64,000 bases of DNA from assembly GCF_022867865.1 (NCBI RefSeq), contig NZ_JALIEC010000002.1, positions 248,001 to 312,000 on the forward strand. Reading direction: 5' to 3'. A program made the position numbers and the translations under genes. This DNA is from Phaeobacter sp. J2-8 (GTDB lineage Bacteria; Pseudomonadota; Alphaproteobacteria; Rhodobacterales; Rhodobacteraceae). The notes below the pieces were generated by a model, which worked only from the letters and a program-made list of their open reading frames with translations, searched no databases and was not told where the DNA came from. Shown piece by piece: positions 11,625-34,676 of the stretch (positions are counted from its first letter, which is position 1; every line of letters starts with the position of its first letter).

Positions 11625-12349
11625 CCAGCCTTGCAGGCAAGACCTATTGGATCATTGGCGCGAGCGAGGGGTTGGGGCGCGCTCTGGCGGAGGCGCTGGA
11701 CCGGGCCGGGGTTCGGTTGGTTCTGTCTGCGCGCAATGGCGACCGGTTGGCGACGCTTGCCGCCGGCCTGCGCCACGCCATCCCGCAAGAATTGGACGTG
11801 ACAGATCCCGACGCCGTTGCCGCGGCGGTGGCCAAGGTCGGCCCAATCGACGGTGTGATTTACTGCGCCGGGCAATACACCCCGCTAAAGGCCCGGAACT
11901 GGGATGCGGCGGCAGTCGCGGCAATGTGCGAGGTCAATTTCATGGGGGCGGTGCGCGTGTTGGGGCATATTGCGCCGCAGTTTGCCCAAGCCAACCGGGG
12001 CCATATCGTGCTGATTGGATCGCTGGCCGGTTTTCGCGGCCTGCCCGGTGCAATTGGCTATGGTGCCAGCAAAGCCGCATTGATGCATCTGGGCGAAAAC
12101 CTCTACGCCGATCTGCGCGACACCGAGGTCAAGGTCCAGGTGGTCAATCCGGGGTTCATCAAAACCCGCCTGAGTGACAAGAATGATTTCGATATGCCCT
12201 TTATCCAAACGCCCGAGGTCGCAGCCGAACAGGTTCTGGCAGCGATGCGTGGCAGGCGGTTTTCAACCAGCTTTCCGGCGCCGTTTTCCTGGCTTTTCCG
12301 CTTTGGTCGGCTGTTGCCGCCTGCCCTGTTCTATCGCATTTTTCGCTGA
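11621..12349 (+). CDS. Short-chain dehydrogenase/reductase, last gene of the sigma-E operon
   Basis: SDR oxidoreductase of 242 residues. The cofactor motif is WIIGASEGLGRALAEAL at the N-terminus, with the catalytic YGASK around residue 145 and the NPGFIKTRLS loop. The ATG at 11621 overlaps the preceding TGA (ATGA). The substrate is unknown; in this operon a lipid or an oxidised lipid fragment is a reasonable guess. It converges on the SDR gene at 12359 with only 9 bases between stops, so both transcription units end here without an obvious strong hairpin. Confidence 0.88.
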   Translation: MTSLAGKTYWIIGASEGLGRALAEALDRAGVRLVLSARNGDRLATLAAGLRHAIPQELDVTDPDAVAAAVAKVGPIDGVIYCAGQYTPLKARNWDAAAVAAMCEVNFMGAVRVLGHIAPQFAQANRGHIVLIGSLAGFRGLPGAIGYGASKAALMHLGENLYADLRDTEVKVQVVNPGFIKTRLSDKNDFDMPFIQTPEVAAEQVLAAMRGRRFSTSFPAPFSWLFRFGRLLPPALFYRIFR

Positions 12350-17101: not shown

Positions 17102-18283
17102 CTATTCAGCAGCAACCGTTTGCCGGATGGGCGCGCCCAGACGCCCGGACAGGCGCACAAGGACAACCCCGACCGCGACAACAGCGGCGGCAATATAGGG
17201 CGCTGCGGCAAGGCCGATACCCTCAACCACAAGCCCGCCTGCCCATGCGCCCCCGGCGATGCCGAGGTTGAACGCACCGATGTTCAGGCCGGAGGCCACA
17301 TCCACCGCGCCGGGCGAAACCTCGCGTGCGATTTGCACGACGTAGGATTGCAGCGGCGGCACATTGGCAAAGGCAAAACCGCCCCAGAAGGCCGCAACCG
17401 CGATGGCTGCAATCGGGTGTGTAAGGAAGGCACCAAGTGCGACCAGTGATATCGCAAGGCCAGCAAAGATCACCGTCAGGGACGCTACTGCACCGATACG
17501 GTCAGCCAGTTTGCCGCCGGCGATATTCCCCACGGCGACAGATGCACCGTAGAGCAATAGCACAAGACTAACCGCGCCAGCAGACAGGCCAGTGACTTCA
17601 TTCAGCATCGGCGCCAGGAAGGTGAAGGCGATGAAGTTGCCGCCATAGCCGACAGCCGTGATCAGATAGACCAGCAGAAGGCGCGGCGAAGTCAGCACCT
17701 GCAACTGTGCCTTGATCCCTGCCGAGGCGGTCTTGGTCAGATTGGCGGGCACCAAAATGGCAGAAGCGACAAAGCCGATCACACCCAACGCGACAACGCC
17801 AAGGAAGGTCGACTGCCAGCCAAAGTTCTGGCCAATGAAGGTCCCCAACGGCACCCCCGTCACCAGCGCGACGGTCAGACCAAGGAACACCAGCGCAATG
17901 GCCGAGCTTTCCTTTTCAGGTTCCACAAGATCGGTGGCAATGGTCGACGCGATGGCGAAGAACACACCGTGCGCCAGACCAGTAATGAAACGCGCAGCGA
18001 CAAGGCTGCCGTAATCCGGCGCAAAGGCGGCGTAGGCATTGCCGAGCGTGAACAGCGCCAGCAAGAGCAGCAGGAGCGTTTTGCGCGGCACACGGTCAGC
18101 CATGGCGGTCAGCACCGGCGCACCGATGGTCACGCCAAGCGCATAGAGGCTGACAAGCAGACCAGCCGAGGGGATAGAAACGCCGAGATCGGCGGCGATG
18201 GTGGGCAACAGGCCGACGATAACGAACTCTGTCGTTCCAACGGCAAAAGCGCTGATGGTCAGCGCCCAAAGGGCAAGTGGCAT
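17102..18283 (-). CDS. MFS transporter, drug/arabinose efflux (AraJ/YdhP-like, DHA1)
   Basis: Proton-coupled exporter of 393 residues with 12 predicted membrane segments. FVIVGLLPTIAADLGVSIPS, the loop-2/3 signature APVLTAMADRVPRKTLLL and LVTGVPLGTFIGQNFGW (antiporter motif C-like) place it in the AraJ/YdhP-type DHA1 group. The ATG at 18283 is preceded by GGAG; an upstream extension to 18352 lacks support. It is transcribed away from the LysR gene starting near 18395, its likely regulator. Substrate unknown. Confidence 0.88.
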   Translation of the reverse strand: MPLALWALTISAFAVGTTEFVIVGLLPTIAADLGVSIPSAGLLVSLYALGVTIGAPVLTAMADRVPRKTLLLLLLALFTLGNAYAAFAPDYGSLVAARFITGLAHGVFFAIASTIATDLVEPEKESSAIALVFLGLTVALVTGVPLGTFIGQNFGWQSTFLGVVALGVIGFVASAILVPANLTKTASAGIKAQLQVLTSPRLLLVYLITAVGYGGNFIAFTFLAPMLNEVTGLSAGAVSLVLLLYGASVAVGNIAGGKLADRIGAVASLTVIFAGLAISLVALGAFLTHPIAAIAVAAFWGGFAFANVPPLQSYVVQIAREVSPGAVDVASGLNIGAFNLGIAGGAWAGGLVVEGIGLAAAPYIAAAVVAVGVVLVRLSGRLGAPIRQTVAAE

Positions 18284-18394
18284 CGGGTTTCTCCAATAAA
18301 TTTGATGTCGACGCCACATATGCATGCCGTTATCTATTGCGGGAACGGACAAGTTTGGAATGGATCATTGCAGAAACTGCACGAATTGCTGCGC

Positions 18395-19260
18395 ATGGGG
18401 GATTTGGCCGCCTTTGTCGGGATCGTCGATGATGGCGGTTTTGCGGAATCCGCGCGGCGGCGTGGCGTGTCGGCCTCGACGCTCAGCCGGTCGGTCACGC
18501 GGCTGGAGGAGCAGTTGAAAGTCACATTGCTCCGCCGCACCACACGATCCATCGAGATCACCCCCGAAGGCGCCGCTGTTCTGGCCGAAGCGCGCGAAAT
18601 TCTGGACCGCAGCGAAGCCCTGCAGGAGATCGCAACCAGCGGACAGGCCCCCGCCGGGCCACTGCGGGTGAACGCGCCGGTTCCTTACGTCCTGCATGTT
18701 CTCGCCCCGCATCTTGCCGAATTTCATGCGACATACCCGGGTATTCAGCTGTCGATTGATATGACGGATACGCTGGTTGACCTAATCGGCAGTCATGCGG
18801 ATGTCGCCATTCGTCTGGGCCGCCTGGGAGATAGCCAGATGTTGCATCGCCCGTTGGGGCAGACGGCCTGGAAATTGGTGGCGACCCCGGAATATCTTGA
18901 TCGCCATGGCTGGCCAGAGCGGCCTGCTGACCTTGGGCGGCTGGAACAAGTCCGCTTTGCCATGCCGGATCATATCAATACGCTGCGCTTTGCCGGTCAC
19001 CCCGACCCGGTGGCCGTGCCCACCGCGCTGACCGCGAGCAATGGCGAAGCGGTGCGGCAATTGGTTTTGGGCGGGCTGGGCATCGCACGGTTTTCCGACT
19101 TCATGATCGCCGAAGACATGCGCGCGGCCGTCTGGTGGAACTTCTGCCCGGTCAATTGGAAGCAGAACCGCTGGAAATCTCTGCGCTCTACCTCACCCGC
19201 GTGTCGGGGCTGCGCCGGCTTGGGGTGTTTCTGGATTGGCTAGCAACGTTGATGGATTGA
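18395..19260 (+). CDS. LysR family transcriptional regulator, C-terminus frameshifted
   Basis: LysR regulator with helix-turn-helix AAFVGIVDDGGFAESARRRG plus VSASTLSRSVTRLEEQL, RRTTRSIEITPEG, and an effector domain (GPLRVNAPVPYVLHVLAPHL). The frame that carries most of the protein ends in unlikely sequence (AVWWNFCPVNWKQNRW). Shifting frame at 19121-19130 (GC-rich CGCGCGGCCG) restores GRLVELLPGQLEAEPLEIS and RRLGVFLDWLATLMD to a TGA at 19260, the normal LysR end. A one-base loss is the simplest explanation. The start is uncertain: 18395 (MGDLAAF) fits the family, but in-frame ATGs exist further upstream. It probably controls the divergent MFS gene. Confidence 0.78.
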
Positions 19261-19394
19261 CGGGCTGCGCCTTGTGGCACGCGCATTTGGTTCATGTCAT
19301 GGGCCATGAAATCATCGACGATAAAGCGCATCATCAGAGAAAGCGGGCCGGTCGTGACAGACGCAAACCCCTCTGTAGCGACAGATGGCCGGAC

Positions 19395-20084: not shown

Positions 20085-21284
20085 TTATATCAAGGCCTTT
20101 GAGGTGATCACATCCCAGAGCCGGACAAGGAAATTATGCTCTTCCATCACCGAATTCCAGATCACGATTTGTCTTTGCCGCGTCTCACAGCTTCCGCCTT
20201 CGCGCAGGTCGCCGGGATGATAGACAACGTTGCCAAAGGCATCGCAAATGTCGGCGGCGGCGGGTTTGCCGTCATACCAGAAATCCCACTCAACCGGTGA
20301 CAAATGCGCACGCGCCGCGCCGGGGGCCGCCATATAGGCGCCGTTCCGGGCCATGATCGCGCCTGCCGGACCGGACAGCCACCAGTTCAGATAGGCATAG
20401 GCCAGCTCTTCGGTACGTGGGTCCAGACTTTGCGACAGGGCCATGCCACCGCACCAGCCGCGATAGCCTTCGGCCGGGGCGCACATCCGAATGGGCATGC
20501 CCCTGGCCTTTTGTGACAGATAGTTCGACCACCACATCGTCGACAGTTTTGCAGACCGGCAGGCGCTGGGGGTCGTGTCGGTCCAGAACCCGGCGAAATG
20601 ACCGGACAGTTGATATTGCTTCACCAACCGGATGAAACTGCCGATTTCACTCAGGCTCAGATTTCCGGGGTTTTCACATTGAAATTCGCCGCGGGCGCGC
20701 AAGGCCAGCAAAAGATCGGGCACGCCGATGGCGGCGTCGGCCTGAATGGCGACCCGCCCGCGCCAGTCTTCGGACAGAAGATCGCCCCAACTGGTGGGGT
20801 CAGGGGCAGAGCTGTCGCCGATAATGGCAAAACTGTCGGCGTTATAGACCGTCGGCAGCATGGAAATCCGCCCGGTGTCTTCGCATCCCAATTCGCCGCT
20901 TTCCTGCACAAACAGCCGATCCAGCGGAGAGCCGCTGAGAACGCCGCCGTTCAGATTGTCCTTGTTTTCACCGGGACGCAGCACCGGCCAGTTGCGCACC
21001 TGATCCCAGCAATTGATGCGGGATACATCAATCGGGCGCAGCGATCTTGCCGGCCAAATCAGATCAAGATCGTGAAACCATTGGTCGTATATGTCGAAAC
21101 TGTCCGGCGCCAGCACGCCACGGCGCTGGGCCTCGATCCCGTCCAGCGCGATGAAATCAAGCCGGATTCCCAAATCGGCCTCGGCCGAGGCCAGAATTGT
21201 GTCAATCAGCGTCACGCCCGTGCCCAGCACGCGCAGCACTGGCGGGTTGATGTGCAAGGACGGCGATTTCAAGTGATCCGGCAA
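20085..21284 (-). CDS. Extracellular solute-binding-like protein without a signal peptide
   Basis: Protein of 399 residues with the fold signature of polyamine-type ABC substrate-binding proteins: LRVLGTGVTLIDTI, SWGDLLSEDWRGRVAI, PAEGYRGWCGGMAL, AYLNWWLSGPAGAIMARNGA. No hydrophobic leader precedes the mature-like start, and no permease or ATPase gene is nearby. It follows the CobW GTPase gene by 15 bases on the same strand. It could be a cytoplasmic binding or sensor protein, or its true start and leader may be lost. I saw no clear frame break, although the 20500-20560 segment is only loosely family-like. Confidence 0.8.
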   Translation of the reverse strand: MPDHLKSPSLHINPPVLRVLGTGVTLIDTILASAEADLGIRLDFIALDGIEAQRRGVLAPDSFDIYDQWFHDLDLIWPARSLRPIDVSRINCWDQVRNWPVLRPGENKDNLNGGVLSGSPLDRLFVQESGELGCEDTGRISMLPTVYNADSFAIIGDSSAPDPTSWGDLLSEDWRGRVAIQADAAIGVPDLLLALRARGEFQCENPGNLSLSEIGSFIRLVKQYQLSGHFAGFWTDTTPSACRSAKLSTMWWSNYLSQKARGMPIRMCAPAEGYRGWCGGMALSQSLDPRTEELAYAYLNWWLSGPAGAIMARNGAYMAAPGAARAHLSPVEWDFWYDGKPAAADICDAFGNVVYHPGDLREGGSCETRQRQIVIWNSVMEEHNFLVRLWDVITSKALI

Positions 21285-21299
21285 TGTGCGCTCTGCCCG

Positions 21300-22265
21300 T
21301 CAGACTGTTTTTACGTTCAAGAACGCCTCGAAAGAGGCGCGCAGCCGCGCCATGTCGAGGTCACGCGCAATGAATACGAGATGGGAGCTTTGATCGGAAG
21401 CGATTGCACTGTCAAGGTGACGCGGGTGGTGCAGCGTATGCCCGACACCATCAATCAGGACAAAACCGGTGTCCGTTTTCAACAGGCATTTGACCCGCAG
21501 CAGATTGGCCCCATGCCGGTGGATCAGCGCCGACAGCCAGACCACGAACCTGGTCCAGTCCAATGATGTCTGAAACGTCAGGCCAAGGGTCGCGGCCCCG
21601 GTGCCATCGCGATGGGCCGACCCGGCAGCCCACGACGCGCCCGGATCAATGGATCCGCCGCCGGCAATATCCGCAAAGGTCGGGTTTTCCCGCGCATCCA
21701 GCAGCTGTGCCGCCGGATTGATCAGCGCCAGCCGCAGCCCCAGATCCTGTAACCGGGTCTGTGGGACCAGATCGGTTTTCGACAGCAAAATCGTGCTGGC
21801 CGCCGCCACCTGGGCAACCCATTCCGGCTGTTTGGCATGCAGGGACGCACCGTTCAGCGCATCGGCAACAGTCACGACATCCTGCAACACCACCTGATTG
21901 TGCAGGACCGGATCAAACGTCAGCGTCGACAGGATCTGCGAAGGATCGGCCAGCCCGGTCGTTTCGATCACGATCCGGTCGAACTGAGGGATCTCGCCGC
22001 TGCGCGCCTGTGCAATCAGGGTCAGGATGGCGTCTTTTAATTCGCCCCGGATCTGACAGCAGACACAGCCGGAATTCAGCAACACCGTGTCCGGCGCGAT
22101 CGTGCCCACCAGCAAATGATCAATCCCGACCGCGCCGAATTCATTCACCAGAACCGCCACCCGATCTGCGGTTTCATCCCGGAGCGCACGTGACAGCCAG
22201 GTTGTCTTGCCCGCGCCCAGAAACCCGGTCAACAACGTGATTGGAACAGGGGGCCGATAGGTCAT
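21300..22265 (-). CDS. CobW/CobW-C family GTP-binding metallochaperone
   Basis: GTPase of 321 residues of the COG0523 group that delivers metal ions to enzymes. Walker A is GFLGAGKTT (residues about 14-22), the metal-binding CxCC is GCVCC, then ETTGLADPSQIL and LSKTDLV as the guanine-specificity loop. A CobW C-terminal domain follows (LLRVKCLLKTDTGFVLIDGV). Its ATG overlaps the stop of the small MCGLCG gene (ATGA). In this operon its client may be the metal-dependent deacetylase/imidase homologue upstream; that is inference. Confidence 0.88.
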   Translation of the reverse strand: MTYRPPVPITLLTGFLGAGKTTWLSRALRDETADRVAVLVNEFGAVGIDHLLVGTIAPDTVLLNSGCVCCQIRGELKDAILTLIAQARSGEIPQFDRIVIETTGLADPSQILSTLTFDPVLHNQVVLQDVVTVADALNGASLHAKQPEWVAQVAAASTILLSKTDLVPQTRLQDLGLRLALINPAAQLLDARENPTFADIAGGGSIDPGASWAAGSAHRDGTGAATLGLTFQTSLDWTRFVVWLSALIHRHGANLLRVKCLLKTDTGFVLIDGVGHTLHHPRHLDSAIASDQSSHLVFIARDLDMARLRASFEAFLNVKTV

Positions 22266-22580
22266 GAAACCGCGCTCCTGTCCGGGAAATTCGCCTCATC
22301 CAAAGGATCAAAGCCGCCGCCGAACTCTTTTTCAAGCGCGGCCCATACCTCGGTCACGTTGCTGACGATGGCCTGCTGGCCGGTCATGCTGCGCAGGACA
22401 TAGCTTTGCCCCTGCCAATCCGACAACTGAATGCGCCTGCGGTCCAGCATCCGGTTCACCGCCGCAATTCGGTTGGCACGGTCCCCGGCGTCGCTGCACC
22501 GGATCCGCCGAAGCCGCTGTGTCCAGCCCGGCGGCGCTCCAATGATCATCCGTGCCAAAAATTCCGCATAATCCGCACAT
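22262..22580 (-). CDS. Small conserved protein starting MCGLCGIFG, frameshifted
   Basis: The ATG at 22580 (AAGGGG upstream) opens MCGLCGIFGTDDHWSAAG. The N-terminus resembles class II glutamine amidotransferases (Met-Cys-Gly), but the protein is only about 105 residues. After a frame break at about 22526-22532 the product continues GWTQRLRRIR, ANRIAAVNRMLDRRRIQLSD, SYVLRSMTGQQAIVSN, FDPLDEANFPD and stops at 22262, overlapping cobW. I recall similar short proteins adjacent to CobW GTPases in other proteobacteria, but no function is known to me. The two cysteines in MCGLCG could bind metal. Confidence 0.6.
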
Positions 22581-22641
22581 TGTTGTTCTGCCCCTTGTGC
22601 AGGCATTGGCGGGACATGATGGCCCCACCTGCCCGATTTGA

Positions 22642-23524
22642 TTACCCCTTGCGCGGCGCGCGAGCGTTATAATCGTCGGCGATTTCGTCGAATGTGGCCC
22701 AACGCACCCCTTCATGGCTGTTGATGTATTCGATCAACCGCTCATGCATCATCAAGACCTGCGGCCAGGCCAGACACGTCGGGGTGAATGGTCATGGTGA
22801 ACACCGCATAATCGTTTTCGCGGTAGACATAGTCGAACTGGTCTTTCCACATCTGCTCGATGTCGCGCGGATTGACGAAACCGTGGCTGTTGGGCGATTT
22901 CTTGACGAACATCATCGGTGGCAGATCGTCGAGATACCAATTGGCCGGGATTTCGATCAGATCGGTTTCTTCGCCCCGCACCAGCGGCTTCATCCAGGCA
23001 TCGGGATGCTGGGTATAGTCGATCTTGGTCCAGCTGTCGCCGACCCGCACCCGGTAGGGATGGAAATCATTATGCATCAGCGAATGGTCGTATTTGATCC
23101 CACGTTCCAGCAGCAACTCGTTGGTGACATTCGAAAATTCCCACCACGGCGCGACATAGCCGGTCGGGCGCTTGCCACTCAGGGCGGTGGCCAGTTCGAT
23201 TGATTTGTCGAGAATGGCCATCTCCTGTTCGCGGGTCATCGCGATGGGATTTTCGTGGGAATAGCCGTGAATGCCGATTTCATGGCCGGCCTTGGCCACG
23301 GCGGCCATTTCATCGGGGAAGGTTTCCACCGAATGCCCGGGAATGAACCACGTGGTCCGCAGATCATATTTCTCGAACAGTTTCAGAAGCCGAAGCGAGC
23401 CGACCTCTCCTGCGAACATGCCGCGCGAAATGTCGTCGGGCGAATCTTCGCCGCCATAAGATCCAAGCCATCCCGCGACGGCATCCACGTCCACGCCATA
23501 AGCGACCAGAATTTCCTTAGTCAT
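22642..23524 (-). CDS. Polysaccharide-deacetylase-fold hydrolase, cyclic imide hydrolase-like, C-terminus frameshifted
   Basis: Metal-dependent hydrolase of the NodB/polysaccharide deacetylase fold. Landmarks: [89 protein letters not shown]. This pattern is that of the cyclic imide hydrolase/PgdA-like branch rather than sugar deacetylases. The ATG at 23524 has GGGAGAA upstream and overlaps the amidase stop. After MTIHPDVSG the frame breaks (about 22765-22773); the family ending ([30 protein letters not shown]) continues in another frame to TAA at 22642. Expected length is about 293 residues. Role inferred: ring opening of cyclic imides. Confidence 0.78.
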
Positions 23525-24899
23525 AACTTTCTCCCTGTGAGATGAAGGTTGCATTGGTAAGTTCGGAAACGATGCGGCCGGTCTGCGCCAGCAGATGATC
23601 ATCGTTGCCAGAGGCCGCCGAAAGCAGGATGGAACCCTGCACGCGGCCGCCGTTTTCGCGCAGCGGCAGCGCCAGACCGGGCCAGTCCAGAAGGCTGCCG
23701 ATCATCGTGGCCCCCAGCAATCTGGAATTGAGATCCTGCGCCGCGTCGAGATTGTCCTGATAGTCAGAAAGCGCATGGCGCAGCGACGGGACCGTTGGAA
23801 AGGCAATCAGCCTTTCGCCAATCTCGGCCTGTGCGTCCCGGACCAGCTGCGCCCGTGTGCGCAGGTAGCTTGCATATTGCGCATCACTCAGAACCGGCGC
23901 CTGTTCGAGCCGCGTTCGGATCATCGGGTCAATCGCAGCGGCCTGATCACTGGCCAACAGATCCGCATATTTTCGCCGCGCCTCGATCGCCACCAGATGG
24001 CCTTGGGCTGTGGTCAGCGCGCGCAGGTCGTCGACGGATTTCAGGCGCGCCGATTTGATGACCCAACCCGCAGCGGACAGATACACCAGGGCCGCATCAT
24101 AGGCCCGGGCAACCTCTTCGCCCCAGACAGGGCCAAGGCTGTCCGACAGATCCCAAATCTCTGCCTTTTCCTTGCGGCCACCCCGAGGGGCGGCTGTGGT
24201 CAAAACCCCATCCGCCGCCCGCAGCACATCGAAGGAATGCGACAGCGTCCCCAGTGTATCAAGTGTCCGGGACAACGGATGCACGCCGGTTTTGTCATAG
24301 CGGGCCGCACTGGGCCGAAAGCCGAAAATGCCATTCAGCGCCGCAGGAAGGCGAATGGAGCCCGAGGTATCCGTGCCGACCCCCAGATCCGCAAGATTGT
24401 GCGCCACCAGCACCGCCGCACCAGAGCTGGAGCCACCGGGCACCAGAGGCACGTCAGTCGACAAAGCCGACGGCGGTGTGCCGAAATGCGGGTTGAGACC
24501 CAATCCAGAAAAGGCAAATTCCGACAGGCCTGTGCGGGCAAGGGACACCGCCCCCGCCGCCTCAATCCGGGCAACGCAATGCGCGTCATGGCGTGCTGGC
24601 GAGGCGGATTTTCGCAAGCCAGATCCGCAGGTTGTCACCTCATCCGCCTGGTCGATGATGTCTTTCCACACCACATGCGCGCCGTCCAGCGGCCCCGGCG
24701 GCTGGCCTTTTGTCATCCGGGCGTCGACCTGTGCGGCAAGCTTCATTGCGCGGTCCGCTGTGATTGCCGTGCAGGCCCCGCACCCGGTCCAGCCTTCAAG
24801 CGCCGCCAAACCCGCCGCCGCCCTGTCCGTCGCCGGACGCCAGTCCGCCCCAGCCCCTGCCACTGCCCCGGACAGTTGGTGTTCACAATTCAATGTCAT
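23517..24899 (-). CDS. Amidase (amidase-signature family)
   Basis: Hydrolase of 460 residues with the Ser-cisSer-Lys triad of the amidase signature family: Lys79 in HVVWKD, the GGSSSG loop at 155-160, and the nucleophile Ser181 in [12 protein letters not shown]. It cleaves an amide to acid plus ammonia. It lies between an NCS1 permease and an imidase-like deacetylase, whose start it overlaps by eight bases. A half-amidase acting on the ring-opened imide is therefore attractive, though other small amides cannot be excluded. The frame is intact. Cytoplasmic, no leader. Confidence 0.85.
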
Positions 24900-24952
24900 G
24901 ATGTCCCCCTGTGGCGGGTGCGATGTGCACCCGCCTGGATGCGTGACCGGGA

Positions 24953-26464
24953 TTACAGGTCTTCGCGCGCGATGGCGTCGTCGGGAATGTCAGCCGTCTT
25001 GACCCGCTGCATGCCCTTGCCGTCCGTATAGACCCAGTTCAGGTTCACCGATGTGGCAAGGTATTTTGCATCGTCCGGGTCTGTGACCTCGGCCTGTTGA
25101 TGCTGCGGCATGACCCAGAGTTTCATCAGCACAAAGTAGACAGCCATCGCGGCCGGGAACCCCACGACATAGGCATATTGGATGAAATACAGTGCCAGCC
25201 CGCCGCCCACGGCCCAGGCGATCAAACCCGCCGGGTTCCATCCGCCAAAGTACCGGAATTGACCGTTCTCCCGATAGAGATCAGGCACATTCAACCGACG
25301 CCCCCGGATCAGGAAATAGTCGCAGACCATGATACCACCGACCGCCGACAAGACGGCACCATACATGCCAAGGTAGGTGAACAGATGGTTCAGGATCAGC
25401 CAGGGCATGGTCAGCGTTCCGATGATGCCGGCGATCACGATACCCATCGCATAGGTGATGCGCGGCGCACCGGCATTCACAAAGGTCAGCGCCGCCGGGA
25501 TCAGGTTTGCGCTGGTGTTGGTGGACCATTGCGCCAGGATCACCATCGCCAGCAACACGACCAGCGTCGCACCCGTGCCCTGTTCCTGAATGACATTGAC
25601 CGGGTTCCAGTCCCCCGTTGCGATAAAGGACACAGCGCCAATCAAGGCAATCCAGCTTTGCGCCACTGGCAGGGCGATGAATTGCGCGACAAAAACATTG
25701 CGGTTGCGCCGAAAGAAGCTCTTCTCGCCGCCTTTGGTTTTCAGAAACCGGGTGATGTTGGGAATGTCCACCGCCAGCGCCGACCAAAAGGCCATGTTGG
25801 CCACAAACAGGGCCACAACGCTGCATATCTCTGCGTCGCCAGCAAAGGTCCAGATATTGTGCCCGCCCGCCGCAGCGACGTTTTCCAAAGTGAAATACAT
25901 CCAGATTGAAATCGCCACGATGGCCGGGGCGGCAATGCTGGCCAGAACCTGAACCGCGCGAATGCCCATGGCGGTATTCACGACCTGGATCAGCCCGAAC
26001 ACCACGTACCAGAACACCCAGCTGTCAAAGCCCCCGAGATAAGACACGATACCGTTCAGCGCCAGCGCGCCAAGATAGGTCTGAATCCCAAACCAGGCCG
26101 CCGCAACGATGCCCCGTGTCACCGATGGCAGATGCGTGCCGATGGTTCCAAACGGCGCCCGAAGATAGACCGCAAAGCTGATGCCATGTTCGGTGCCAAT
26201 GTCGGCCGTCAGGGCCATCACCAGCCCAAGGGCCAGGTTGGCCAGAAAGATCGTGCCAATCACAGTCGCCAGCGGAAGCCCCGCCACACCGCTTGCGCCC
26301 AATTGGAACGTGGCAATGATCACCGCCATGCCGATCCAAATCCACACATAGCCCAAACCGCCAATCGTTCGCTGGTTCAGCCAAACCGGCAAGATCGAAG
26401 CTTCTTGCAAACGTGATTTTTCCCCGACGTCCAGACCCTGCGCCGCCATTTCCGAAAGTGCCAT
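24953..26464 (-). CDS. NCS1 family nucleobase/hydantoin/allantoin-type permease
   Basis: Inner-membrane symporter of 503 residues with about 12 membrane helices. NCS1 features: LNQRTIGGLGYVWIWIGMAV, AWFGIQTYLGALAL, LVVLLAMVILAQWSTNTSAN, GGIMVCDYFLIRGRRLNVP. Members import cytosine, uracil, allantoin, hydantoins or related ring amides. It is the first gene of a minus-strand unit with amidase and cyclic-imide-hydrolase-like genes and is divergent from the two-headed GntR regulator at 26650. The cargo is therefore likely a cyclic imide or ureide. Confidence 0.88.
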   Translation of the reverse strand: MALSEMAAQGLDVGEKSRLQEASILPVWLNQRTIGGLGYVWIWIGMAVIIATFQLGASGVAGLPLATVIGTIFLANLALGLVMALTADIGTEHGISFAVYLRAPFGTIGTHLPSVTRGIVAAAWFGIQTYLGALALNGIVSYLGGFDSWVFWYVVFGLIQVVNTAMGIRAVQVLASIAAPAIVAISIWMYFTLENVAAAGGHNIWTFAGDAEICSVVALFVANMAFWSALAVDIPNITRFLKTKGGEKSFFRRNRNVFVAQFIALPVAQSWIALIGAVSFIATGDWNPVNVIQEQGTGATLVVLLAMVILAQWSTNTSANLIPAALTFVNAGAPRITYAMGIVIAGIIGTLTMPWLILNHLFTYLGMYGAVLSAVGGIMVCDYFLIRGRRLNVPDLYRENGQFRYFGGWNPAGLIAWAVGGGLALYFIQYAYVVGFPAAMAVYFVLMKLWVMPQHQQAEVTDPDDAKYLATSVNLNWVYTDGKGMQRVKTADIPDDAIAREDL

Positions 26465-26649
26465 CTTACCCCTCCTGTCAATTATTGATCTTTTGCATTC
26501 TTAAGATCATTTTTGGAAAAAGAGAAGACTTTTGTTTCCTCGCCCGCCCCCCTGGGGTACACATCACCATGGCGCTGGGCGTGCCGCACGCACCGCGTAT
26601 TGGCCGCCCGCCGCGATCGAAACCCAAAGGAAGACCCTGAAATTTGTCG

Positions 26650-27660
26650 ATGATTCCCAGATACATATCGATTTCAGAAGCGATCAGAACCGCCGTGGAA
26701 AACGGCCGTCTGGAGGTCGGTCAGGTTTTGACCGAAGACCCTTTGGCCCGGCATTTCAACACCAGCAGAACGACCATTCGCAAAGCGCTTGCCGAGCTTC
26801 ACAATGCCAAGATCATCACCCGTTTCGACGGTCGGGGGTTCCTTGTCGGGACTGATTCTTCGGCGCCGCCGCGCCGTCATTCGATTGAACAAGCCTTGTT
26901 TGATTCAATGGCCAGCGGCACGGTGCCGCGCGCGGTGTCCAACCCCGACCAGATCCTGCCGGTCCTGCGCGAGGAGCTGATCCGCGCCCTGCCCTTTGGG
27001 CCATTGCAGATCAACGAAGCCAAACTGACCGAACGGTTTTCCGTCAGCCGGTCAGTCGTGCGCGACATGCTCTCGCAGCTTCGCAGTTCGGGGATCGTCG
27101 AAAAGAACGAACGGTCCAAATGGGTGTTGCCGGTTTTGACGGTTTCGGACGTGCGCAATCACTATCAATTGCGTATCCTTCTTGAACCCGTTGCCCTTGC
27201 GGAATCCGCGCCCCGTATCGCCAGACAGGACATCGAACGGGCCTTGAAGTCGGCGAAAGAGCTCAGCAGTCAAAGCACGGAACCCACCGCGGCGGCGCTG
27301 TCGGACATGGAGGGGGTTTTGCACATCTGGGCGCTGTCGGGCTGCACCAACGACCATCTGCTCAAGACGTTACAGAAATCGCGTCTTGTCCTGGCAATCA
27401 ATGAAATGTTCCGCCTTTTGCTGGGCCGATCCCCGGCTGGTGGCGGGCTAATCCGGGAACATATCGCCGTGCTTGAGGCTTTGTCCCGCAACGACATCGC
27501 GGCGGCCGCATCACTGTTGGAACTGCATCTCATCGAGGCACGGGAACGCACCTGCAAAAGACTGCAAACGCTTTCGGTTCTGCTGCCGCCCAAATTGCCG
27601 GATTATCTGGCCCAGGGCACGATCTCGATGAACCAAACCGCGTTGCTGAACGAGAAGTAG
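26650..27660 (+). CDS. GntR/FCD regulator with two tandem winged-helix domains
   Basis: Regulator of 336 residues. Two GntR-type DNA-binding domains occur in series: residues about 5-65 (VENGRLEVGQVLTEDPLARH, TSRTTIRKALAELH, GRGFLVG) and about 95-160 (LREELIRALPFGPLQ, TERFSVSRSVVRDMLSQLRS, SGIVEK). An FCD effector domain follows (VSDVRNHYQLRILLEPVALA, LLELHLIEARERT). Most GntR proteins have one head and about 230 residues. The start at ATG 26650 is preferred over TTG 26644. It diverges from the permease at 26464 and most likely controls the imide/ureide cluster. Twin heads may allow a monomer to bind a full operator. Confidence 0.82.
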   Translation: MIPRYISISEAIRTAVENGRLEVGQVLTEDPLARHFNTSRTTIRKALAELHNAKIITRFDGRGFLVGTDSSAPPRRHSIEQALFDSMASGTVPRAVSNPDQILPVLREELIRALPFGPLQINEAKLTERFSVSRSVVRDMLSQLRSSGIVEKNERSKWVLPVLTVSDVRNHYQLRILLEPVALAESAPRIARQDIERALKSAKELSSQSTEPTAAALSDMEGVLHIWALSGCTNDHLLKTLQKSRLVLAINEMFRLLLGRSPAGGGLIREHIAVLEALSRNDIAAAASLLELHLIEARERTCKRLQTLSVLLPPKLPDYLAQGTISMNQTALLNEK

Positions 27661-29253: not shown

Positions 29254-30168
29254 TTAGGCCAAAGCCAGATGCTGCCGAACCAATCGACTGATTTCATTCG
29301 CCAATTCCTCGGAGAAATCTTCTGTAATGGCTGAAATATGTGGTGCAAGAATTGTGTTGTTCAGAGATGAAAAACGGCGATCCGGCGTAGGTTCATTTTC
29401 GAATACATCAAGCGCAGCCCCGCCGATTACGCCTTCTTGCAAAGCGGAAATCAAAGCCTCTTCATCAATCACCGACCCGCGCGAGACGTTAATCAGAAAC
29501 GACTGCGGCCCAAGCGCACGCAGAATACCCGCATCAACAAGCCCATTCGTGGCCTCACCGCCCGGCACCGCTAAAACCAAAAAATCCGCGCGGCGCGCCA
29601 TGGATTTAAGATCCGCGACATAGGGCCAAGGCACATTCAAACGCGGCGTTCGCGTGTGATAAATCGGCTTCAGCCCCGCACCGGCAAGCCGCTCTGCGAT
29701 CAGATAGCCGATGCGCCCCAGGCCTACGACACCGACAGTTTTGCCAGTCACGCGGGTGCGGTGTCCGAAATGCGCGGATGCCCATGTCCCTGATCGCACA
29801 TGGGCATCCGCCCGCACAATATCGCGCGAAATTGCATACAGCAGAGCGATGGCCATTTCCGCTGTATCAGAAGACACAAGCGCGCCAGTGTCGCACAGCT
29901 CTATGCCGCGCCGGGCCAGTTCGGCATCATCAAAAATGTCCCGCCCGGCCCCGGCCGAAACAATCCGCTCCAAGTTCGGCAAAAGATCCAGCAGCTCAAC
30001 CGGCGCGCCATTCACCGCAGACGTGACCGCACAGGTAATCGCCGCGCGACGCGAAAGTGGCAGGTCAGCGATCTCTTCCTTCGCAATCAACGTGCCAATT
30101 TTCCAAAGCTCGCTACAGACAGACTCCATCATGTAGCCCAGCAAAGCGACATCAGGGGCATTGCTCAT
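29254..30168 (-). CDS. D-isomer-specific 2-hydroxyacid dehydrogenase
   Basis: NAD(P)-dependent dehydrogenase of 304 residues. The Rossmann motif is VGVVGLGRIGYLIAERLAGAG; catalytic arginine in INVSRGSVIDEEAL, acid in ALDVFENEP, and histidine in APHIS, as in glyoxylate/hydroxypyruvate reductases. The ATG at 30168 overlaps the GntR stop (ATGA), so it is the last gene of the regulator-transporter unit. It probably reduces or oxidises a hydroxyacid formed from the imported substrate. GC content is lower than in the core genes. Confidence 0.88.
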   Translation of the reverse strand: MSNAPDVALLGYMMESVCSELWKIGTLIAKEEIADLPLSRRAAITCAVTSAVNGAPVELLDLLPNLERIVSAGAGRDIFDDAELARRGIELCDTGALVSSDTAEMAIALLYAISRDIVRADAHVRSGTWASAHFGHRTRVTGKTVGVVGLGRIGYLIAERLAGAGLKPIYHTRTPRLNVPWPYVADLKSMARRADFLVLAVPGGEATNGLVDAGILRALGPQSFLINVSRGSVIDEEALISALQEGVIGGAALDVFENEPTPDRRFSSLNNTILAPHISAITEDFSEELANEISRLVRQHLALA

Positions 30169-30866
30169 TCTGTGTCTTCTTTTGTCTCTTTGAGAAATGG
30201 CAACCGCATTTTTTCCCACGCAGTCCAAACCAGTTTTTCCGTGCTATCGCGCGCTGCATCGACGTTGCCTTCGCGGATTTGACCGATGGTTATCTCGTTG
30301 TTTTCAATCATGGATAACAGCATCTCGGGCATGCGCCGGTAGGCATGATACCGATACCGCAAGGCCGACACATCAAGCTGGTTCAATGTACGAATGAGCA
30401 CCGAATTCTCGCATCTTTCATGCGAAACTCTTGTCAGGCGCACATTGGCCTCAAATCCCGCTAGCAGATCACCACAGCGTTGCGCCGACCGCATCGCATC
30501 CAGCTCACCCTCCAAAACGTCAGCGATTTCCTTGTGATGCGCCAAACCGGCCAAGAGCCCCGCGCATGCGGCCTCAAGCGGCGCGCGGCAAACCGTTATC
30601 TCGTTCAAATTCTGCTCAGTCATTTCGGTAACCCGGGTTCCTACCCGCGGGCGCCGCTCAACCAGGCCCCGGTTTTCAAGAACCTGAAACGCCTCTCGCA
30701 AGGGCGAGCGCGACACGCCGAACTGCATGCAAATCGCTTCTTCGCGTAGCTTTTCGCCCGGCGCAAATTTCTCGCGCACAATTGCGGCCTCCAACCGATC
30801 CGCAAGTTCAAGCCCAATGGGGCGGAGCTGCAATTGTGCGTCGAGATGTGGAATGTTCTTCGTCAT
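30165..30866 (-). CDS. GntR family transcriptional regulator (FCD)
   Basis: Regulator of 233 residues: winged helix (LEAAIVREKFAPGEKLREEA, VSRSPLREAFQVLENRGLVE, RVGTRVTEM) and FCD effector domain (LNEITVCRAPLEAACAGLLA). It overlaps the permease stop upstream (30863-30866) and the dehydrogenase start downstream, so it is embedded in the ABC transporter operon and is most likely its local repressor. A TGTATACA palindrome in the 35.7-kb divergent promoter region is a candidate operator. Confidence 0.9.
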   Translation of the reverse strand: MTKNIPHLDAQLQLRPIGLELADRLEAAIVREKFAPGEKLREEAICMQFGVSRSPLREAFQVLENRGLVERRPRVGTRVTEMTEQNLNEITVCRAPLEAACAGLLAGLAHHKEIADVLEGELDAMRSAQRCGDLLAGFEANVRLTRVSHERCENSVLIRTLNQLDVSALRYRYHAYRRMPEMLLSMIENNEITIGQIREGNVDAARDSTEKLVWTAWEKMRLPFLKETKEDTE

Positions 30867-31645
30867 ATGCGACGGCCAAACAAAAGATCCGAAACAACGA
30901 CCAGAAACAAGGTCAGCAAAATGGAAACAGTCGACACAGCAGCGGCCTCTGGGGTGAAGTTGAAGCGAAGATAGTCAAAAAGCTGGATTGGCAATGGCGC
31001 CGACCCCGTGCCCTTCAGAATGAAGGAAATGCCAAAAGTATCAAAGCTGATTATGAAAGCAAAGACCGCCCCGGTCGACACACCCGGCGCAATCAACGGC
31101 AGGGTTATCCGGCGAAACGCCGTATAGCGCGACGCACCCAACGTGCGCGCGGCCAGTTCGACCGACCCGTCGCGCCCTTGCAAAGACGTATTCACGTTCA
31201 GGAAAATGAACGGTAGCGTCATCAGCACATGCCCGGTAAACAGTGCGATTTTATGTTCGGTGCCGACGCCGATTTCATAAAAGAAAAACAGCAGCGCAAT
31301 CGCCGTCAGAATTTCGGGCAAAATCAACGGCAAGAGAACACCAATCCGCACCCATTCGGCGTCACGCCCCGCATGCCGCACATAATAAAGCGCAGCCATC
31401 GTCCCAAGTACCAGCGACACCGACGTCGCGCTGGCCGCAAGGAGCGCAGAGTAGAGGATCGCATTGATAAAGATGTCGTTGTCCAAAAAGGTCCAGAACC
31501 AACGCAGGCTGAGCCCCTGTGGCGGGAACGTCAGAAAATTGCCAGCGTTCAGAGACGCCAGCACAACAACAGCGATCGGCGCAAGCAGGAAGACGTAGAC
31601 CATGATGCGAAACGTGTTGAGACAGAGCGAGGCAAAATTCATCAA
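30863..31645 (-). CDS. ABC transporter permease, spermidine/putrescine type (PotC-like)
   Basis: Inner-membrane permease of 260 residues with six predicted helices. The BPD-type EAA loop is ELAARTLGASRYTAFRRITL followed by PLIAPG, which contacts the ATPase. It pairs with the permease at 31646 (adjacent, no gap) and the ATPase at 32482. Late FIISFDTFGISF matches PotC-type subunits. Lower GC than the genome average. Confidence 0.9.
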   Translation of the reverse strand: MMNFASLCLNTFRIMVYVFLLAPIAVVVLASLNAGNFLTFPPQGLSLRWFWTFLDNDIFINAILYSALLAASATSVSLVLGTMAALYYVRHAGRDAEWVRIGVLLPLILPEILTAIALLFFFYEIGVGTEHKIALFTGHVLMTLPFIFLNVNTSLQGRDGSVELAARTLGASRYTAFRRITLPLIAPGVSTGAVFAFIISFDTFGISFILKGTGSAPLPIQLFDYLRFNFTPEAAAVSTVSILLTLFLVVVSDLLFGRRI

Positions 31646-32485
31646 TCAGTTCCACTTCATCCGTGTAAGACGCGCAAACACCAACACGACAATTCCTGCC
31701 GACACCGCAAGAATTAACGCCATCGCCGAACCAAAGGGCCATTGGAATTGATCAATCAACGCATCGATCACCAACAATGTGGTTGTTTTCACCCGCATCC
31801 CGCCCACAAGCGACGGCGTCACATAAGATGAGATTGCCAGCACAAAGACAAGAATGCACCCTGCCTGGACCCCCGGCATCGACACCGGAAATGTAATGCG
31901 CCGAAAGATCGTCAACCGCTTTGCCCCCAATGACCGCGCGGCCTGGGCAATGGCGGGGTCCATGGATTGCAAGGACGACAGCAAAGGCAACACCATAAAG
32001 GGCAAAAAGACATGGGTCAGCGCCAGGATCACACCAAAGTTGTTATACATAAGCGGCAAGGGCCGCGTTATGATCCCCAGATCACGAAGCGTCGAATTGA
32101 TCACGCCGGAATTACCAAGCAAGATCGTCCACCCATAGCTGCGGACCACAATCCCGACCAAAAGCGGCGACAGCACAATTCCGTACAACAACCCGCGCCA
32201 TTTTCGCGAGGCCGTGGCAATATGCAATGCAATTGGATAACCTAACAGAAGACAGAAAAAAGTGGTCGCCATTCCAAGCGCAAGCGTTTGTGGCAGTGAA
32301 ATGGCATAATAGCTTTCGCGAAAGAACTGAGTATATCCCCCAATGCTAAACCCCTGGCCATAAGGCTGACCATCTGCGGGGGCGCGAAAGCTCATGACAA
32401 GCACGGTAACGTAAGGCAAGATCACGAATAGAAACAACAATGCCGCTGTTGGTGCGATCAGGAAATAGGCACGAAACCGTTTCAT
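31646..32485 (-). CDS. ABC transporter permease, spermidine/putrescine type (PotB-like)
   Basis: Inner-membrane permease of 279 residues. It starts at [18 protein letters not shown] (ATG at 32485, overlapping the ATPase stop as ATGA). The EAA loop is AQAARSLGAKRLTIFRRITF and the PotB-like SSYVTPSLVGG is present. Six predicted helices. Forms the heterodimeric channel with the 30863 permease. The substrate is inferred only as polyamine-like or other organic cation/acid. Confidence 0.9.
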   Translation of the reverse strand: MKRFRAYFLIAPTAALLFLFVILPYVTVLVMSFRAPADGQPYGQGFSIGGYTQFFRESYYAISLPQTLALGMATTFFCLLLGYPIALHIATASRKWRGLLYGIVLSPLLVGIVVRSYGWTILLGNSGVINSTLRDLGIITRPLPLMYNNFGVILALTHVFLPFMVLPLLSSLQSMDPAIAQAARSLGAKRLTIFRRITFPVSMPGVQAGCILVFVLAISSYVTPSLVGGMRVKTTTLLVIDALIDQFQWPFGSAMALILAVSAGIVVLVFARLTRMKWN

Positions 32486-33555
32486 GGCGCAGCCCCATCC
32501 CGGTCGTCCGGCATTGGCCAAAGGCGCGCTGGATCGAAACAAAGACCAACAGTGTCGCCCTCTTTGAGGTTTTGGGTTGTTGGGCCGACAACGGCAATCT
32601 CGTCGCAATCGGTGTCGATCGAGTATTCCACATGGCCGCCGCTGAAATACCGTTTGGCGATCCGCCCGCCAAGCTGACCGTGTTCCGGTGCGGTCAGCAT
32701 AATTTGTTCAGGTCGCGCCATTATACGCAATCTTTCACCTGCCCAATCCGCCGAAGCCGTCACATGCAATGTTGTGCCGCCCGGCAGCCTGGTCTCGATC
32801 CCGCCGCCCTCGGGTCTGGCGGAAATCGCCAGATCAAGGATATTGGCGTTGCCCACAAACCGGGCGATACGTTCCGATGCCGGGGCATTATATACGTCCT
32901 CAGGGGCGGCGGCCTGGGCAATTTCGCCGTCAAACATCACCACCACCCGGTCCGACATGGTCATGGCTTCGTCTTGGTCATGCGTGACATAGATCGTGGT
33001 GATACCCACACGTTTTTGCAGATCGCGAATAAAACCCCGCATTTCATCGCGCAACTTGGCGTCGAGATTGGCCAAGGGTTCATCAAGCAATAGAATTGCA
33101 GGCTCAATCACCAGAGCGCGCGCCAGCGCAACCCGTTGTTGTTGCCCCCCGGACAGCGCTTTGGGATATCGATCCGCATAGGGGGTGAGTTGCACCATAT
33201 CCATGGCGCGCATCACACGCTCTTTGATTTCGGATTTGGACACGCGGCGCATTTCCAGCCCGAAGGCCAAATTTTGCGCCACCGTCATATGCGGAAAAAG
33301 CGCATAGGATTGAAACACCATCCCGATATCGCGATTTTCCGGCAGCTTATGCGATATATCCTGATTATCGAAAAAGATGCCACCTTGGGTGATTTCTTCG
33401 AAACCCGCAATGCATTTCAACGTGGTGGATTTGCCGCACCCTGACGGACCAAGCAGGGAAATGAATTCACCGTGGTTCACATCAAGGGAAATCCCCTTGA
33501 GCGCGGCAGTCTTGCCGTAATATTTCTTGAGCGCGCGTAGCGAAACTTCGGTCAT
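32482..33555 (-). CDS. ABC transporter ATP-binding protein, PotA-like
   Basis: ATPase of 357 residues. Walker [17 protein letters not shown]-loop [19 protein letters not shown], signature [15 protein letters not shown], Walker [13 protein letters not shown], and H-loop [14 protein letters not shown], followed by a C-terminal TOBE-like domain ([15 protein letters not shown]). It energises the two adjacent permeases. The gene sits between the binding protein and the permeases, with a 74-base gap upstream. Confidence 0.92.
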
Positions 33556-33629
33556 GTTTTTGCAGCCGGTTCTTGAATTATTGACCCGCTCTGTAAAGGC
33601 ACAGAGCGGGAAGTTTCTGGAATCTAGGA

Positions 33630-34676
33630 TCAGGCGCCAAAAATCTCATTCCAGCGGCGGGAAATCTCTTCTGCGTTGTCATTCATGAGTTCCCAATCCC
33701 ATTTGATGAACTGGCCCATGGCCTCGCCCGAGACAGGCACATCAATGGTCAAATCTTCGGGAACGACCACCTTCTTGTTGACCGGAGAAACAAAGAATTC
33801 CCGCATCAAGAGATCCTGGCCCACGGGCCCAAGAACGAAATCAAGATAGGCATAGGCTTCATCGCGGACGGGCGAGTCTTTGGCGATGTTGAAGGTTTGA
33901 TCCCACATCATAAGCCCCTCTTCGGGCATGATACAATTGACCGGCAAACCCTGGTTGCGCAAACGTGCAATTTCGCCAAAATCAAACGGGGCAACAGCAA
34001 TTTCGCCCGTGGCCATTGCCGTGCTCATATTGAAGTCGGTTTGATACACCGGGCCCAATTCCTTGAGCATTTCAAAACCAACGTCCAAATCATCAATGCC
34101 CTTGCCATAGATCATCGACGTCAACATCAGGAACATTTTACCGGCGGAGTTCTTGATATTGTACAGGCCAAGACGGCCTTTCAGCTCGGGATCTTCCCAC
34201 AAATCTTTCCAGGACGTTGGTGCCTTGGACAACATATCGGTACGATAGCCCAGGCCAATCGGCGAAATAAGCCCGACAGCGGCCCAGCCCTCTGACGCCT
34301 CGGTCGCGACCTCATAGAGGTCGGCGTAATTTGGAAGTTTGGCAAGATCGAGCTTTTCGAAATAGCCCTCCGAGCGCAAGACTGTTGAATAAATTTCATT
34401 TGTCATCAAGCAACTATAAGGCGACTTTCCGACACCCGCAGCGCGGATATTGGTGGTGTATGTACGGCCAAGCCCGATGTCCAAGGTCGGATCAATTCCG
34501 GTTTCCTCGGTAAATCCGGGGATCAAAACGTCGCGCCAGAACTTCTCCCACGAACCGCCATAGGTGGTGATTACCAGGCTTTGAGCTTGGGCGTGGACGG
34601 CCGGGACATTCAGGACGGACGCTCCACCAAGCGCGATGAGCGCCTTGAGCATGTGGCGACGGTTTAACTCTGTCAT
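33630..34676 (-). CDS. ABC transporter substrate-binding protein, PotD/PotF type
   Basis: Periplasmic binding protein of 348 residues. The leader NRRHMLKALIALGGASVLNV has a twin-arginine-like start and a signal cleavage near VHA-QA. The mature part shows LVITTYGGSWEKFWRDVLIP, GLGYRTDMLSKAPTSWKDLW, PFDFGEIARLRNQGLP and AYAYLDFVLGPVGQDLLM, typical of the polyamine-type class. It is upstream of the ATPase and permeases and downstream of the oxygenase in the same direction. The ligand is not predictable. Confidence 0.9.
   Translation of the reverse strand: MTELNRRHMLKALIALGGASVLNVPAVHAQAQSLVITTYGGSWEKFWRDVLIPGFTEETGIDPTLDIGLGRTYTTNIRAAGVGKSPYSCLMTNEIYSTVLRSEGYFEKLDLAKLPNYADLYEVATEASEGWAAVGLISPIGLGYRTDMLSKAPTSWKDLWEDPELKGRLGLYNIKNSAGKMFLMLTSMIYGKGIDDLDVGFEMLKELGPVYQTDFNMSTAMATGEIAVAPFDFGEIARLRNQGLPVNCIMPEEGLMMWDQTFNIAKDSPVRDEAYAYLDFVLGPVGQDLLMREFFVSPVNKKVVVPEDLTIDVPVSGEAMGQFIKWDWELMNDNAEEISRRWNEIFGA

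Follow-up and report, generated by a model that had tools for sequence, protein, structure and literature searches.

A putative cyclic-imide utilisation cluster in Phaeobacter sp. J2-8 with a recurrent MCGLCG-CobW-imidase core and a leaderless binding protein paired with a GntR regulator

Described imidase pathways and the layout of the cluster

The closest described pathway to the cluster analysed here is the HxnW-HxnM-HxnN section of nicotinate breakdown in Aspergillus nidulans, where the step of the imidase HxnM is placed between HxnW, a short-chain dehydrogenase/reductase (SDR), and HxnN, an FAAH-like amide hydrolase (PMC9304392). HxnM has 64.2% identity to a P. putida imidase homologue, and its closest structural homologue is HP0310 (PMC9304392). 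In HP0310 the metal ligands are D14, H86 and H90, with D12 and H247 adjacent, and the protein has neither a polysaccharide groove nor a signal peptide (PMC3084791). We examined a seven-gene cluster at 20085-27660 of a 64,000-nucleotide stretch of Phaeobacter sp. J2-8 (contig NZ_JALIEC010000002.1, positions 248,001 to 312,000; hereafter the window), for which regulated nitrogen scavenging of a small cyclic imide is the best explanation, with a probability of about 0.64. As in the fungal pathway, an HP0310-related, imidase-type hydrolase would be followed by an amide hydrolase. However, the cluster has no SDR, which is a point of resemblance between the fungal system and other bacterial variants with major facilitator superfamily (MFS) or ATP-binding cassette (ABC) importers, and there are no pyridine-ring genes within 20085-27660. 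Furthermore, the part of PMC9304392 available to us does not name an NCS1 permease, MCGLCG protein, CobW, binding protein or GntR regulator. The features of the cluster are as follows.

26644-27660, plus strand: GntR/FCD-family regulator with two winged-helix (GntR) segments (Pfam GntR in two stretches, and FCD)
26486-26509, no strand: perfect inverted repeat TGATCTT-N10-AAGATCA, a candidate operator 21 bases before the start codon of the permease gene
24953-26464, minus strand: NCS1 permease, Mhp1-like (Pfam Transp_cyt_pur, 177 bits)
23517-24899, minus strand: amidase-signature hydrolase (Pfam Amidase, 167 bits; GGSSSG, TSGSIR and WKD motifs)
22642-23524, minus strand: HP0310/imidase-type hydrolase with a polysaccharide deacetylase fold (Polysacc_deac_1, 59 bits; open frame 22742-23524)
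22262-22580, minus strand: MCGLCG small protein (~100 amino acids in relatives), frame-disrupted in the window (alignment of relatives)
21300-22265, minus strand: CobW/COG0523 GTPase (Pfam cobW and CobW_C; P-loop and CXCC motif, here CVCC)
20085-21284, minus strand: leaderless PotD-like binding protein, expected in the cytosol (Pfam SBP_bac_6, 29 bits; modelled fold)

In the proposed route the permease would import the ring, the hydrolase would open it to a half-amide and the amidase would release ammonia and a dicarboxylate. An earlier note on this DNA had put forward the same sequence of steps, which is supported by homology and by the kinds of amide hydrolase found in relatives. CobW and the MCGLCG protein most likely act as a helper pair supplying the metal of the hydrolase, and the three-gene core that they form with it is seen to recur. 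The leaderless binding protein may serve as a cytosolic ligand sensor, and together with the two-headed GntR protein it would switch the cluster through the palindrome that precedes the permease gene. Where relatives have MFS or ABC importers, the imide may be formed from a hydroxylactam by two SDR dehydrogenases, as proposed for HxnW in Aspergillus.

Reading frames, Pfam and NCBIfam place all seven genes in the order that had been described, with the named genes consecutive and two of them overlapping. The GntR gene is divergent from the other six, the amidase stop and the hydrolase ATG (23524) share 8 bases, and the MCGLCG stop and CobW start share 4 bases. Two of the genes are disrupted. 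The last ~40 residues of the hydrolase, which are present in relatives, lie directly downstream in another frame with no stop inside when read alone, and the N-terminal motif and the remainder of the MCGLCG protein are likewise in different frames. Relatives hold intact copies of both genes and the downstream pieces are still conserved; either an assembly error or recent decay could account for the disruptions. By eye, a LysR-type regulator at 17969-19243 also seems to shift frame towards its C-terminal end, a hint that the assembly of this stretch contains errors.

Recurrence of the hydrolase, MCGLCG and CobW genes

The best solved relative of the hydrolase is HP0310 (HpPgdA, PDB 3qbu), with 193 of 253 aligned residues identical (76%). 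The five active-site residues D12, D14, H86, H90 and H247 are shared with it and are invariant in 17 relatives. Close homology and these residues place the enzyme in the HP0310/cyclic imidase family, and HP0310 is reported as related to imidases. It does not belong with the PuuE allantoinases (TIGR03212 57.5 bits against a curated cut-off of 424.6). We also rejected a secreted peptidoglycan deacetylase: there is no signal peptide and, while the frame could begin 26 residues earlier within the amidase gene, the start methionine of relatives aligns within the window hydrolase.

A scan of genome contigs with the hydrolase gave 277 relatives, and among the best 80 loci, mostly from Pseudomonas and some cut at contig ends, we counted MCGLCG in 77, CobW in 74, GntR in 72, the binding protein in 69, an MFS transporter in 68, the second SDR in 68, amidase in 67, the first SDR in 66 and an NCS1 permease in 3. 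The gene combination is not unique to the source genome, and the cluster is far above chance, since it recurs in alpha-, beta- and gammaproteobacteria. The variants seen include one with NCS1 (Zongyanglinia, Ruegeria, Grimontia and a Leisingera plasmid), one with MFS and two SDRs (Pseudomonas, Burkholderiaceae, enterobacteria and Acinetobacter, including one Klebsiella plasmid examined of five listed) and one with a polyamine-type ABC importer and two SDRs (Rhizobium, Agrobacterium and Thioclava). The importer therefore appears to be interchangeable among NCS1, MFS and ABC types. Within the genus the cluster is sporadic, because three other genomes of the genus have no close hydrolase (best E values 1e-6, 1e-23 and 3e-5; comparison of 61 genomes, the source genome and 60 relatives).

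The smallest recurrent unit is imidase, MCGLCG and CobW. In L029 these three are the only cluster genes recognised within its 20 kb, and the one exception is L030, a locus with full flanks in which MCGLCG is present and CobW was not found in 20 kb. L030 is from Neisseria wadsworthii and has two MCGLCG genes (11746-12108 and 18959-19279) near one imidase. At L164 a gene for a tripartite ATP-independent periplasmic (TRAP) transporter binding protein adjoins the cluster. On the Leisingera plasmid (L113), 15438-16768 encodes another polysaccharide deacetylase as well as a urea carboxylase-associated protein, a few kb away from the cluster. As to the earlier claim that the exact combination was undescribed, we found no description of it in the literature searched, but the neighbourhoods of HP0310 had already been compared, with polyamine importers noted (PMC3084791).

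No Pfam or NCBIfam model matches the MCGLCG protein, and a fold search of the PDB with its model (mean predicted local distance difference test score, pLDDT, 75) gave a best E value of 0.14, with no relative below 0.1. Its distribution follows that of the imidase closely. Among 398 evenly drawn Pseudomonadota genomes, MCGLCG (E ≤1e-6) and imidase (E ≤1e-60) were each found in 10, which were the same 10 genomes from 7 genera, with the two genes at most ~3.2 kb apart in each. The window's class was represented by 347 genomes (MCGLCG E ≤1e-4, imidase E ≤1e-60); MCGLCG was present in 20 and imidase in 21, of which 18 were strong (>350 bits), and all 18 strong-imidase genomes have MCGLCG. Three of the 18 (G502, G604 and G690) carry two strong imidases and two MCGLCG genes each, and three with only a ~220-bit hydrolase (G456, G512 and G539) lack MCGLCG. 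It occurs without a strong imidase in two genomes: in G581 its neighbour is a deacetylase of 29% identity, and in G713 it is found on a 10.5 kb contig with an amidase gene on one side and CobW on the other.

The same association was seen around individual imidase genes. We examined 111 loci, some from repeated records, and in the 107 with an imidase of at least 350 bits MCGLCG lay within 7 kb in 104; the three misses (L037, L066 and L092) are records ending 1.3-2.2 kb past the imidase. Two loci have MCGLCG and a weaker or split hydrolase (L129 and L159), one has MCGLCG and no hydrolase (L160), and L163 has a weak hydrolase and no MCGLCG. The hydrolase of L163 (8925-9788) is 39% identical, with neither MCGLCG nor CobW nearby, and may mark where the partnership begins. 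In 71 of 74 loci the gene immediately upstream of CobW is MCGLCG. Residues C2, C5, W14, G67 and D91 are invariant in 103 distinct sequences, and the motif at the start is missing from one of 109 hits (L028).

The window CobW has the P-loop, CXCC motif and CobW_C domain of the COG0523 GTPases and is a member of that family on these features. The accessible text of PMC2770081 and PMC9164220 mentions neither an MCGLCG-like partner nor an imidase client for such metallochaperones. We read MCGLCG as a partner of CobW and the imidase, and MCGLCG and CobW would form a metal-supply pair.

A leaderless binding protein and its GntR partner

The modelled binding protein (pLDDT 79) matches the PotD/YdcS folds. 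A core motif is present in 68 of 69 in-cluster copies (all except L082). In 43 of them the longest frame still leaves fewer than 14 residues ahead of it, 23 have more residues and no hydrophobic stretch, and two (L069 and L097) exceed the hydrophobicity threshold only if a long upstream frame is read, so that the protein has no credible leader in this cluster type as judged from its reading frames. All 31 relatives examined outside the leaderless group (two sets, of 20 and 11 sequences) are extended at the N-terminus; 30 of them show a twin-arginine pattern and 28 pass a hydrophobicity test as well. A survey for such relatives gave a match in 71 genomes. With no leader, and no ABC genes within 20085-27660, the protein does not qualify as an ABC-transporter binding protein. 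We also rejected the idea that it belongs to a lost or neighbouring importer: Rhizobial-type clusters with the ABC variant hold both an exported and a leaderless binding protein, and the ABC set next door in the window (30863-33555) has its own binding protein with a leader like those of the twin-arginine translocation (Tat) pathway (33630-34676). By eye, this neighbouring cluster (29254-34676) encodes a 2-hydroxyacid dehydrogenase-like protein, a GntR regulator, two ABC permeases, an ABC ATPase and the binding protein, and is apparently separate.

Binding proteins that feed sensor histidine kinases are described (PMC11113362), and exported relatives of the window protein's subfamily adjoin kinase genes, whereas the window protein has neither leader nor kinase and is accompanied by GntR instead. 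Eighteen loci of exported relatives adjoin a protein with a shared kinase sensor domain and are without an ABC permease match, although L133 and L184 are one place and L174 and L177 give weak kinase-core matches only. Pfam confirmed kinase domains in three of the kinase-linked loci, and seven other exported-relative loci adjoin ABC permeases. The Tat-exported binding proteins of L122, L130, L133 and L170-L183 form a family whose genes neighbour those of hybrid histidine kinases that have a sensor domain in common at the N-terminus. An unrooted tree of 64 proteins places the leaderless group (27 proteins) on one side of a branch with support 95/82 and sets the kinase-linked group (17 proteins) apart by a branch at 100/99, and a further branch at 98/93 parts both groups from 20 transport proteins. 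For the leaderless and kinase-linked groups to be sisters, the root has to fall within the transport proteins, as the midpoint suggests, and their grouping is favoured, not proven.

All 12 aligned GntR proteins match both GntR and FCD, with two GntR segments in the window and L101 proteins and one in that of L024. Across the 107 loci, 76 combine the leaderless protein with GntR, 16 lack both, and GntR stands alone in one (L128) but the protein in none; thus all 76 countable loci with the leaderless protein hold GntR, and the pairing holds across different gene orders. The remaining 14 loci are cut off and were not counted; among them L083 and L132 have the protein with no GntR in view, while L037, L066, L092 and L096 have GntR without the protein. 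The threshold for this pairing was raised after a first count in which L116, L124 and L127 had the protein without GntR, because their proteins carry Tat leaders and are exported transport proteins. A Fisher p value for the pairing overstates it, since the loci are related and some repeated. The palindrome is the single such site in the 4.8 Mb genome (spacers of 8-12 bases), with none for a reversed-pattern control, and with up to two mismatches it also arises in 14 of 100 shuffles of the window. It is exact in the Leisingera locus, with two mismatches each in Zongyanglinia and Ruegeria.

The absence of a leader, the co-occurrence with GntR, the tree and the palindrome are the grounds for proposing a sensor and switch, with the binding protein as a probable cytosolic ligand sensor. 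It is possible, if doubtful, that the protein is instead an enzyme or a cytosolic carrier and no sensor. Cytosolic single-domain proteins of other function do match binding-protein profiles (PMC9602780), but the kinase-linked relatives group with the leaderless protein, and its pairing with GntR is strict even where the GntR gene sits elsewhere.

Substrate of the cluster and its meaning

We sought five kinds of second-step enzyme within 9 kb of the imidase in the 107 loci. Amidase alone was found in 80, asparaginase without dihydropyrimidinase in 3 (L072, L115 and L154), asparaginase with dihydropyrimidinase in 2 (L128 and L156), an isochorismatase-family protein in 4 (L120, L125, L126 and L166), a nitrilase-type protein with dihydropyrimidinase in 1 (L127) and dihydropyrimidinase only in 1 (L116). 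Pfam matches bore out the asparaginases and the nitrilase-type protein, as they did the isochorismatase proteins of L120, L126 and L166, and the genome of L120 has an amidase ~7 kb off (in L119). Amidase, asparaginase, isochorismatase-family and nitrilase-type enzymes have different folds, and since different folds fill one role the data suggest that the conserved reaction is hydrolysis of the amide formed by ring opening. The window amidase itself is an amidase-signature enzyme, with the Amidase domain and Lys-cisSer-Ser motifs.

The permease is an NCS1 family member (Transp_cyt_pur cut-off 23.5 bits) and falls under the curated cut-offs of the NCBIfam models for the ncs1 subfamily, allantoin, cytosine and CytX. 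Its closest solved structure is the hydantoin permease Mhp1 (E 2e-56), in which W117, Q121, W220 and N318 contact hydantoin (PMC4195764). These are kept as W124, Q128, W227 and N320, which supports a small ring as substrate and does not single out imides, because such residues are general to NCS1.

Several points weigh against imide scavenging. The shared Mhp1 residues are described as conserved across NCS1 transporters (PMC4195764), while Q42 and G219 of Mhp1 are replaced by I49 and F226. The link of the hydrolase to HxnM and the P. putida enzyme runs through papers (PMC9304392), and the best 80 of the 277 loci were all found via the imidase and are mostly from one genus. None of the five enzyme kinds lies within 9 kb in 16 of the 107 loci, some at contig ends, and dihydropyrimidinase-like genes occur in four (L116, L127, L128 and L156). 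The binding-protein tree is unrooted, and the approximately unbiased (AU) test does not firmly reject a grouping of the leaderless proteins with 16 transport proteins (p 0.054; 0.036 for the kinase-linked proteins with the same 16). Lastly, with two frame-disrupted genes the window copy of the cluster may be non-functional.

The strongest competing account of the substrate, which we consider rather unlikely, is ureide or hydantoin use, with the hydrolase opening a hydantoin, dihydropyrimidine or allantoin-like ring and the amidase cleaving the carbamoyl product. NCS1 family members carry hydantoin, allantoin and nucleobases, the hydrolase fold is kin to PuuE, HyuA/HyuB-like genes lie near L126 and L166, and the dihydropyrimidinases, which exceed the curated cut-off of TIGR02033 in L127, L128 and L156 and were matched by BLAST in L116, speak for ureides in some members of the hydrolase family. 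However, the PuuE model scores far below its cut-off, HP0310 showed no activity on allantoin (PMC3084791), and of the 89 loci whose hydrolase shares at least 78% identity, amidase is present in 76, asparaginase in 2, a dihydropyrimidinase-like gene in 1 and a nitrilase-type gene in none. Deacetylation of peptidoglycan or sugars by the hydrolase, for which the name of HP0310 and its deacetylation of crude peptidoglycan in earlier work cited by PMC3084791 might speak, is very improbable given the inactivity of HP0310 on the tested substrates (GlcNAc, chitotriose, acetyl-polyamines, acetyl-dipeptides and allantoin), its lack of a groove and signal peptide, and the company of an NCS1 permease and amidase in the window.

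With imide scavenging as the preferred explanation, two things appear to be new: the MCGLCG-CobW-imidase core, which recurs, and the association of a two-headed GntR regulator with a leaderless binding protein related to sensor proteins. We found no description of leaderless binding proteins of this kind in the literature searched. A wider scenario joining these parts is tentative: a periplasmic protein of a two-component-sensing lineage would have lost its Tat leader once and, now cytosolic, would report an imide or half-amide to the two-headed regulator, while the CxxC family and the COG0523 GTPase would form a dedicated metal-loading pair for the imidase in Pseudomonadota and at least one actinobacterium.

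The cluster gives bacterial cyclic-imide hydrolases a genomic home and argues that HP0310 is misnamed. It also offers a candidate client and partner for a GTPase of the COG0523 family, whose targets are mostly not obvious (PMC2770081), and it points to a testable way in which a sensor protein, once exported, may become cytosolic.

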